NCBI GenBank assembly: GCA_028280715.1
Contig: JANQLG010000033.1
Coordinates: 124,001-188,000 of the forward strand
Reading direction: 5' to 3'
Length of the DNA stretch: 64,000 nt
Source of the DNA: Spongiibacteraceae bacterium
GTDB taxonomy: Bacteria; Pseudomonadota; Gammaproteobacteria; Pseudomonadales; Dasaniaceae
Below, one piece after another: positions 2,225 through 4,789 of the stretch. The position numbers and the translations under genes were made by a program. The stretch's first letter is position 1. Each line of letters begins with the position of its first letter. The notes beneath the pieces were generated by a model. It saw nothing but the letters and a program-made list of their open reading frames with translations. It was not told where the DNA came from and did no database searches.

Positions 2225-2578
2225 ATGGCTAGTGCGCCTCAAGGGGCTCGTAATGGAATTTTGTCTTTAACGATAAAAGATAAGGCTGTTCTTTACGCAG
2301 CCTATATGCCATTTCTGGTCAATGGTGGGCTTTTCATTCCTACCAATAAACCCTATAAGCTGAATGATGAAGTGTTCATGCTATTGAATCTCATGGATGA
2401 GCCTGAAAAAATTCCTGTAGCTGGACGTGTTGTCTGGGTGACGCCAAAGGGGGCTCAGGGCAATCGCGCAGCGGGTATTGGTGTCCAATTTAATGGTCAG
2501 GATGATACTGCCAATCAAAAAATAGAGAATTACCTGGCTGGTAGCCTTGATTCAGATCGGCCAACTCATACAATGTGA
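2225..2578 (+). CDS. pilZ: Type IV pilus assembly protein PilZ
   Basis: This 117-residue protein has the single PilZ-domain fold and length of Pseudomonas PilZ, needed for type IV pilus biogenesis. Visible family features are GILSLTIKDKAVLYAAYMPF at the N terminus, GGLFIPTNKPY, and the GRVVWVTPKGAQGNR-GIGVQF block. It lacks the RxxxR c-di-GMP motif at the N terminus, as does pilus PilZ, so c-di-GMP binding is not predicted. The ATG at 2225 has AGG seven bases upstream. It lies between holB and tatD, the position of pilZ in Pseudomonas, and is followed by a strong terminator at 2600-2626. Confidence 0.92.
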   Translation: MASAPQGARNGILSLTIKDKAVLYAAYMPFLVNGGLFIPTNKPYKLNDEVFMLLNLMDEPEKIPVAGRVVWVTPKGAQGNRAAGIGVQFNGQDDTANQKIENYLAGSLDSDRPTHTM

Positions 2579-2681: not shown

Positions 2682-3458
2682 ATGTTGACTGATTCCCATT
2701 GCCACCTTGATCGATTGGATTTGTCGCCTTACGACGGAGATCTGTCTTCAGCTATTACTGCTGCCCAGGACAGGGGAGTTGAACGTATTCTATGTATTGG
2801 CATTGATATGGCTAATGCAGAAACCGTCGTCAATATTGCCAACCAATATGCAAATGTTTATGCCTCGGTCGGGGTTCATCCGTTGGATGTTGCGGAAGAG
2901 CTTGTGCAAATAGCCGAACTAGAGTCATTAGCTCGATCAGAGAAGGTGCTGGCAATTGGAGAAACGGGGCTAGATTACTACTATAAAAACGATACGGCTG
3001 AACTTCAGCAACAGAGCTTTAAATTGCATTTAGACTTGGCAAAGGCGGTTAATAAGCCCGTTGTGGTCCATACGCGCGATGCTAGAGAAGATACTTTAGC
3101 CATTATCAGAGAGTCAGGTATTAGTGAGGTGGGTGGTGTTTTACATTGCTTCACTGAAAACTGGGCAATGGCCAGTGCGGCTCTTGATGAAAATTTTTAT
3201 ATATCCTTCTCAGGAATTATAACGTTCAAGAATGCAACGCAGTTACGCGATGTTGTTGCCAAGGTGCCTTTAGAACGAATGCTGGTTGAAACCGATGCGC
3301 CGTATTTGGCTCCAGTGCCCTATAGAGGGAAAAAGAATGAGCCTAAATATGTCGTTGAAGTGGCACAGTGTATCGCAGATATCAAAGGCTTATCTTTGCC
3401 GGAAGTGTCAGAAATAACTTCAAATAATTTCGATAAGCTATTCTTAAATAAAGAATAA
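2682..3458 (+). CDS. tatD: TatD-family metal-dependent DNase (YcfH-like)
   Basis: This is a TatD-family metal-dependent hydrolase of 258 residues, thought to act as a 3'-5' DNase in DNA turnover. Metal ligands expected for the family are visible: the N-terminal SHCHLD (His7, His9), GETGLDYY with the bridging Glu near residue 91, VHTRD near 126, LHCF near 152 and ETDAPYLAP near 203. It is the last gene of the mltG-to-tatD cluster but sits behind the terminator at 2600-2626, so it may depend on read-through or its own promoter. The symbol covers the broad family; YcfH is the closer subfamily. Confidence 0.93.
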   Translation: MLTDSHCHLDRLDLSPYDGDLSSAITAAQDRGVERILCIGIDMANAETVVNIANQYANVYASVGVHPLDVAEELVQIAELESLARSEKVLAIGETGLDYYYKNDTAELQQQSFKLHLDLAKAVNKPVVVHTRDAREDTLAIIRESGISEVGGVLHCFTENWAMASAALDENFYISFSGIITFKNATQLRDVVAKVPLERMLVETDAPYLAPVPYRGKKNEPKYVVEVAQCIADIKGLSLPEVSEITSNNFDKLFLNKE

Positions 3459-3467
3459 TTTCCACAT

Positions 3468-3497
3468 AAAAAAACCGGTACTCAAGTGAGTACCGGT
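3468..3497 (-). terminator. Minus-strand terminator of the candidate small RNA
   Basis: ACCGGTACTC (3474-3483) pairs perfectly with GAGTACCGGT (3488-3497) around a 4-base loop. The T-tract is on the minus-strand side only, because the plus strand has an A-run before the hairpin and no T-run after it. It therefore reads as a terminator for minus-strand transcription, not primarily for tatD. Confidence 0.75.
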
Positions 3498-3597
3498 CAA
3501 GACCATTAGGAGTGAAACATTAAGGAATTGCTTCCTGGGTGGAACGATTCCTAAGTTCCAGTAGATGTCTGTTGAACATAGGGGATAGACATCTGCA
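3468..3597 (-). ncRNA. Candidate structured small RNA
   Basis: Read on the minus strand this gap encodes four hairpins in a row: an 8-bp stem AGATGTCT/AGACATCT (3594-3563, 16-base loop), GGAAC/GTTCC with the loop TTAGGAATC (3559-3541), AGGAA-GCAA-TTCCT (3536-3523), and a 10-bp terminator stem followed by six or more U (3497-3468). A promoter-like pair lies at 3632-3604 and would start the RNA just before the first hairpin, giving about 130 nt. I see no convincing coding frame. Three GGA triplets, one displayed in a loop, recall CsrA/RsmA-binding RNAs but are too few to name it so. The class is inferred and expression is unproven. Confidence 0.5.
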
Positions 3598-3603
3598 TAT
3601 TTC

Positions 3604-3632
3604 AGTATCGTAGAATTGGTATTATTTGCCAG
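3604..3632 (-). promoter_or_regulatory. Putative sigma70 promoter of the candidate small RNA
   Basis: On the minus strand CTGGCA (3632-3627) and GATACT (3609-3604) are separated by 17 bases. Each hexamer matches the consensus at four of six positions. The predicted start near 3597 coincides with the base of the first hairpin. Weak as a stand-alone call. Confidence 0.35.
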
Positions 3633-3721
3633 CTGCGAGTGAACAATTTTTAAACGAATTCGGAATAACACATTTATAGTTTATCTAATGCGATGCTTAA
3701 TTTAGCGGCTTAAAGATTGAG

Positions 3722-4789
3722 ATGGATAATTTCTTTTACGGGGTTATTGAAGGGTTTTATGGTCGGCAATGGTCTTTTGCCGACAGGCATTCCTATGCTG
3801 GCTTTTTATCTCGCTGTGGTTTCGATTGCTACATCTATGCTCCCAAGGGTGATAATTTATTTCGGTCCCGGTGGCGAGATTTATTGCCTCCGGAGCATCT
3901 TCAGGCATTGCTTCGGTTGAGGGCTGAGTATCGTTCGCAGGGAGTACGATGGGGCATCGGATTTTCTCCACTGGGTCTTTCAGAGCAATTTAGTCAGGCT
4001 GACAGGCAATTATTGATAGAAAAAATACAGCAGCTGAATGAACTTGAGCCAGATATTTTGTGTGTCTTATTTGATGATGTGCGCGGTGATATTCAAGCCT
4101 TGGCGGACAATCAATTAAGTGTGATCAGCTCGATAGTCGAATACAGCCAAGCTTCCCAGCATATTGTTTGTCCTACTTACTATAGCTTTGACCCAGTGCT
4201 TGAAGAGATATTTGGTTCAATGCCAAAAGGCTATTGGTCAGACTTGGGCAAGGGGCTTGATAGTGATATCGATATTTTTTGGACAGGCAATCAGGTGATT
4301 TCAACATCGTATTCGATGGGGGATATTGACCAAATAGGGCAATACTTCTGTAGGAAACCAGTTTTATGGGATAACTATCCGGTAAATGATGGTAAGAAAA
4401 CCAGTAACTTCCTGAACTTAAAAGCTTATAGTGGTAGGCCTTCTGCTCTCAGCGATGTGTTGAATGGCCATCTGGTTAATCCAATGAATCAGCCTTGGTT
4501 ATCTCGCTTGGTGCTGCAAACTTTGGGGCAGCTTTATCAGGAGGTAGAAGCTTATGATCCATTAGCAGCTTTTGAGCAGTCTCTAGTTTCCTTGCAGGAT
4601 ATGCATTTTGCCAATCAGTTGAAAGCAGATGCTTCGGTATTTCAGGATAAGGGCTTGATGTCGATGTCAGATAAGCAGCGGCAGGAGTTGGCATCAATCT
4701 ATTCTCAATTTCAACATCCAGCAGCGAAAGAAATTGCTGAATGGCTAAAGGGTGAATATGCTTTTGATCCTGCCTGTTTGACGGGTTAG
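3722..4789 (+). CDS. GH84-type beta-N-acetylglucosaminidase (O-GlcNAcase-like)
   Basis: This 355-residue protein matches glycoside hydrolase family 84, which removes beta-linked GlcNAc by substrate-assisted catalysis. The N-terminal GVIEGFYGRQW (residues 7-17), the YAPKGDN region (39-45), the adjacent catalytic aspartates Asp118-Asp119 in LFDDVRGD, and the later VLWDNYPVND block that binds the sugar in the family are all present. Canonical enzymes carry APKDD where this one has APKGD. There is no signal peptide or extra carbohydrate-binding domain, so it is a minimal and apparently cytosolic enzyme. It stands alone between the candidate RNA and tRNA-Leu. Whether it acts on cell-wall fragments, chitin sugars or glycoproteins cannot be told. 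Confidence 0.85.
   Translation: MDNFFYGVIEGFYGRQWSFADRHSYAGFLSRCGFDCYIYAPKGDNLFRSRWRDLLPPEHLQALLRLRAEYRSQGVRWGIGFSPLGLSEQFSQADRQLLIEKIQQLNELEPDILCVLFDDVRGDIQALADNQLSVISSIVEYSQASQHIVCPTYYSFDPVLEEIFGSMPKGYWSDLGKGLDSDIDIFWTGNQVISTSYSMGDIDQIGQYFCRKPVLWDNYPVNDGKKTSNFLNLKAYSGRPSALSDVLNGHLVNPMNQPWLSRLVLQTLGQLYQEVEAYDPLAAFEQSLVSLQDMHFANQLKADASVFQDKGLMSMSDKQRQELASIYSQFQHPAAKEIAEWLKGEYAFDPACLTG

Follow-up and report, generated by a model that had tools for sequence, protein, structure and literature searches.

A divergent RgsA small RNA gene, missed at default Rfam cut-offs, in a Spongiibacteraceae bacterium

In the 64,000-nucleotide stretch of Spongiibacteraceae DNA analyzed here (the window), the minus strand of one intergenic gap almost certainly carries the rgsA gene of this bacterium, encoding a divergent RgsA (P16; RF00628). 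This is a new member within a known family, one that default Rfam annotation misses. The gap is flanked by tatD (2682-3458) and an O-GlcNAcase-like gene (3722-4789), both on the plus strand, and the small RNA gene measures about 128 to 130 nt, from a start at about 3595-3597, predicted from the promoter sequence, to a terminator ending at 3468. Along the minus strand, the AT-rich element TTATTCCGAATTCGTTTAAAAA is followed by CTGGCA-17 nt-GATACT, the transcript, and a 10- to 11-bp stem with seven U. The initial annotation had described a structured minus-strand small RNA of about 130 nt with its own promoter and terminator, and all of these pieces were located, including the promoter-like pair upstream of the hairpins (CTGGCA-17-GATACT, 3604-3632) and the predicted start at the foot of the first hairpin (stem-loop I, 3563-3594). 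The direction that it assigned was also correct, the plus strand having no T-run after the terminator stem. On the contrary, its statement that no named RNA family fits was wrong, as a permissive Rfam search returned RF00628 (RgsA) with an E value of 4.7e-14. The features of the locus are as follows.

2225-2578, plus strand: pilZ, open reading frame, synteny anchor
2682-3458, plus strand: tatD (YcfH-type metal-dependent hydrolase), open reading frame, convergent neighbor and synteny anchor
3468-3597, minus strand: rgsA small RNA gene; full-length RF00628 match, fold z of -4.85, covariation, synteny
3468-3498, minus strand: Rho-independent terminator, 10- to 11-bp stem and U7; 5 of 8 pairs covary, 95.8% of cells paired
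3499-3518, minus strand: conserved core GUUUCACUCCUAAUGGUCUU, between stem III and the terminator; presumed target-pairing region
3523-3536, minus strand: stem-loop III, 5 bp, GCAA loop; sequence mostly conserved
3540-3560, minus strand: stem-loop II, 5 to 6 bp, loop UUAGGAAUC with GGA; 4 of 7 consensus pairs covary, 71% of cells paired
3563-3594, minus strand: stem-loop I, 8 bp, loop with UCCCCU; all 9 consensus pairs covary
3604-3632, minus strand: sigma-38-type promoter, CTGGCA (3627-3632), 17 nt, GATACT (3604-3609)
3647-3668, minus strand: upstream regulating sequence (URS) TTATTCCGAATTCGTTTAAAAA, aligned with the Rfam RF00628 consensus and conserved at fixed spacing

The Rfam search that the initial annotation had proposed as a check reports only a tRNA in the window at default cut-offs, with nothing at rgsA. 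In the permissive search, RF00628 matched the minus strand from 3682 to 3476 over its full length (model positions 1 to 194) with 61.7 bits, below the gathering cut-off of 88.4, which is a curation threshold and not a biological feature. As the start of the model lies upstream of the RNA, the aligned region takes in the URS, the promoter region, and the RNA itself, and the score therefore reflects control sequences too. The window genome yielded this one RF00628 match and no second locus. Weak matches in the window to ncr1175, tsr33, and mir-1264 were attributed to chance. A 75-codon open reading frame on the minus strand (3444-3671) spans rgsA; a coding role was rejected because it starts upstream of the promoter and ends beyond the terminator.

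Matches to RF00628 at E <= 0.01 were found in 60 of 194 related genomes, only 8 of them above the cut-off; the 14 control genomes had none. Across 340 genomes of the class, the family was detected in the window genome and one other member of the order, while the other 338 gave 2 weak matches, about chance level. Thus, the family is widespread in the order and not detectable beyond it. Of the eight matches above the cut-off, five have tatD next to them, as do many of the sub-threshold matches, which suggests that the cut-off was set for a narrower group. Furthermore, the exact 20-nt core TTTCACTCCTAATGGTCTTG occurs in 62 stretches of the named genome collection, nearly all resembling real genes, against a chance expectation, estimated from base counts, of less than one in 257 billion bases. 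One core match (L133), which lacks a terminator, is probably due to chance, and matches of the R1 model outside the order (G220 and G423) look like terminator matches lacking the core. No viral contig was found to carry the core, so a phage origin of rgsA is not supported. RgsA was not detectable in two genomes of the same genus (G001 and G006, 92% and 96% complete), which may reflect loss or an assembly gap. The acpP start region of these two genomes is identical to that of an RgsA-bearing relative.

The surroundings of the gene correspond to those described in Pseudomonas, where rgsA is convergent with tatD (PMC2375449). In the window, the RNA gene likewise lies tail-to-tail with tatD, near pilZ-holB-tmk. 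Among 61 loci, 14 have tatD tail-to-tail with the RNA at a distance of about 25 to 140 bases, and in 11 more, where tatD is missing, a pilZ-holB(-tmk) block takes its place, giving 25 loci tail-to-tail with one or the other. Named Pseudomonas and Stutzerimonas loci with the core show tatD-pilZ-holB-tmk tail-to-tail with the RNA; those of Haliea, Halioglobus, and Pseudohalioglobus have pilZ and usually holB-tmk beside it, and most of them share the O-GlcNAcase-like neighbor of the window. In Microbulbifer and other Cellvibrionales, the RNA stands in different surroundings. Orthology with Pseudomonas rgsA is well supported because the locus matches the Pseudomonas layout in tatD, the URS, and the RpoS-type -10. 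Besides the convergent arrangement with tatD next to pilZ-holB-tmk, the URS, and the sigma-38-type -10, Pseudomonas RgsA/P16 and the window RNA have in common a length of 120 to 130 nt, a 5' hairpin with a C-rich loop, a conserved single-stranded core, and a Rho-independent terminator. The window RNA differs in its diverged stem sequences, which accompany a score under the Rfam cut-off, in a terminator loop without the CCCC of Pseudomonas RgsA, in a possible alternative pairing of stems II and III predicted by folding, and in acpP complementarity that appears shifted onto the start codon, with no fis site found. The plus-strand gene at 3722-4789 encodes a 355-amino-acid protein assigned by eye as O-GlcNAcase/hyaluronidase-like, and a gene of this type occupies the rgsA spot in loci of the window's family and of Halieaceae.

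The varied neighborhoods also bear on whether the locus lacks a small RNA of its own and is only a terminator or 3' region, such as a convergent terminator of tatD. The terminator does follow tatD directly, and part of the folding energy is explained by the terminator alone; however, the U-tract serves only the minus strand, where no convincing upstream gene exists. This explanation was rejected, and we regard it as extremely improbable, because conservation of the promoter, URS, stem I, and core persists at loci with different neighbors.

The identification as RgsA is further consistent with the sequences upstream of the transcript. Pseudomonas rgsA has an RpoS-type promoter with a -10 of the CTATACT type and, upstream, a conserved element named URS (PMC2375449). 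The GATACT of the window gene agrees with this -10, and the homologues have the same promoter position and pattern. A scan with the sigma-70 consensus did not include 3604-3632 among its results because the promoter fits the sigma-38 pattern instead. Because consensus similarity served to choose the -10 hexamers of the homologues, counting these hexamers adds no independent evidence, whereas the fixed spacing of the URS does. Across 121 loci, the URS-to-start distance is nearly always 71 to 72 nt, and 64% of the loci match the motif at 13 or more of 20 positions, compared with 5% of shuffles. Judged by sequence, the window gene thus has both the RpoS-type promoter and the conserved URS of rgsA. 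The URS at 3647-3668 is kept across the order at 71 to 72 nt from the start and is not assigned to the site of a known regulator.

The structure of the RNA was evaluated by folding and by covariation. The 128-nt transcript (3468-3595) folds at -42.0 kcal/mol, compared with a shuffle mean of -25.1 (z = -4.85), and none of 200 shuffles folded as well. The stems are so divergent that aligning all 50 families jointly yielded no usable consensus fold, and covariation was therefore assessed on 24 closer relatives aligned by sequence. In these relatives, 85.8% of the cells of the consensus stems are paired, 18 of 28 pairs show double-sided changes, and the covariation score, at 0.316, exceeds that of shuffles (0.195), a value that none of 500 shuffles reached. 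When the pairing partner is shifted by 1 to 3 bases, pairing falls to 35 to 53%; this comparison somewhat favors the true register, since one of the 24 sequences served as the template for the structure. The signal is strongly carried by stem I and the terminator, and stem II is moderately supported, at 71% of cells. Stem III is neither supported nor refuted because its sequence hardly varies. The initial annotation had listed four tandem hairpins of 8, 5, 5, and 10 bp, the last with a U-tract, and these were recovered at 3563-3594, 3540-3560, 3523-3536, and 3468-3498, with U7 on the last; its refuting condition, stems not maintained by compensatory changes in relatives, was examined and did not hold. 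The minimum-energy fold, a prediction for the window sequence alone, refolds stems II and III as a single long arm (-42.0 compared with -36.0 kcal/mol for four separate hairpins). Because this fold merges the two middle hairpins, the middle of the RNA is less certain than its ends; in the window species the predicted folding of this part is ambiguous, and the alternative pairing of stems II and III is possible.

The stem II loop carries the single GGA that had been noted earlier; the motif is there, but it is not conserved in relatives. Such a loop could hint at a CsrA/RsmA-titrating RNA of the RsmY/RsmZ/CsrB type, in which the regulator is sequestered by GGA loops. The RsmX/Y/Z and CsrB family does resemble the window RNA, as both are structured gammaproteobacterial small RNAs with a link to GacA signaling and a GGA in a loop, and GacA affects RgsA expression in Pseudomonas (PMC2375449). 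However, that family has several conserved GGA loops, whereas the window RNA has one, absent from most relatives, and RgsA did not relieve RsmA repression in Pseudomonas fluorescens (PMC2375449). Titration was therefore rejected as a very unlikely reading, and the hint drawn from the GGA was not borne out.

The region of RgsA most likely to contact its targets is the core between stem III and the terminator. In the 24 relatives, a set partly chosen by possession of the core, GUUUCACUCCUAAUGGUCUU is invariant except for one inserted A in one sequence; among 50 unselected Rfam matches, ACUCCUA(A/U)UGGUC is kept in 40. According to a review, nucleotides 71 to 77 of Pseudomonas aeruginosa RgsA are required for pairing with the fis and acpP mRNAs (PMC9308961). 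The core corresponds to nucleotides 70 to 82 of the inferred transcript in one Pseudomonas-like homologue and so overlaps this segment, and GUUUCACUCCUAAUGGUCUU supplies the window RNA with the conserved core expected around these positions. The divergent homologues narrow the pairing region to a near-invariant core of about 20 nt, whose near-invariance across the order suggests a conserved target set.

Candidate targets were evaluated in the window genome, where the core segment AUGGUCUU lies within the near-invariant core. The acpP gene (G000:C41:122051-122278, plus strand) lies about 2 kb before the first base of the window. At its start codon, within the start region AAGACCAUG, 8 nt are complementary to the core. 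The predicted duplex (-20.1 kcal/mol) equals the third-ranked value among 98 background gene starts. GACCATG occurs at the acpP start in 5 of 15 genomes with RgsA compared with 3 of 14 without it, and the exact 8-mer is also in the window genome. Across relatives, the register and length of the acpP site vary with no clear enrichment with RgsA; pairing is missing from some RgsA-bearing relatives and present in some genomes with no detected RgsA. Neither fis (-13.3 kcal/mol, rank 58) nor the rpoS leader (-16.4 kcal/mol, unremarkable) gave a notable pairing signal with the core. Consequently, acpP is a plausible candidate target in the window genome, and fis as a target is unsupported. About 5 kb separate acpP from rgsA, to which it is convergent in strand and part of the same convergent gene block.

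These observations allow a variant, compatible with the RgsA identity, in which the RNA shares descent with RgsA but, in this lineage, has switched to other mRNAs as targets and no longer controls acpP or fis. The lack of fis pairing, the differing register and length of acpP pairing among relatives, and the wide divergence of stems between families are in line with it, whereas the near-invariant core and the plausible acpP site in the window genome point the other way. We consider a change of targets possible but the less probable course.

For the RgsA reading, the sequence-supported components comprise the sigma-38-like promoter, the upstream element, an RNA of about 130 nt, covariation in stem I and the terminator, the core, and the U-tail, together with the rpoS and hfq genes, both present in the window genome. 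A Rho-independent U-tail is typical of Hfq-dependent small RNAs. By analogy with Pseudomonas RgsA, which is RpoS-dependent, binds Hfq, has a role in peroxide (H2O2) resistance, and represses fis and acpP (PMC2375449, PMC3709562, PMC8395346), RpoS would transcribe rgsA on entry into stationary phase or under stress, and Hfq would bind the RNA. The core (CUCCUAAUGGUCUU) would then base-pair at the ribosome-binding sites of the mRNAs that it targets, for example acpP, and block their translation, and RgsA might slow growth functions and help survival of oxidative stress. Most likely, then, RpoS would induce RgsA as growth slows and, with Hfq, the core would lower translation at ribosome-binding sites. 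More tentatively, and slightly less likely than not, RgsA may be an order-wide general-stress small RNA that predates Pseudomonas, set beside an acpP-tmk-holB-pilZ block under RpoS and a regulator that binds the URS at its fixed spacing, with a core that ancestrally couples stress to fatty-acid synthesis.

RgsA ranges far more widely than described in the Pseudomonas studies that we found, and default Rfam annotation misses the gene in most of the order where it is present. Our literature search found no paper with the RF00628 accession, and among the top-ranked results for RgsA together with other genera, none mentioned RgsA; most subscription journals lay outside that search, and earlier reports may exist. 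Within the literature searched, the order-wide range, the near-invariant core, and the fixed-spacing URS outside Pseudomonas are new. The homologue alignment can be used for target prediction and in the search for the URS-binding protein. Additionally, most homologues have C-rich (CCCC) loops on stem I and the terminator, 43 of 50 carrying CCCC close to the stem I loop, and these loops could provide an additional point of contact for G-rich ribosome-binding sites.
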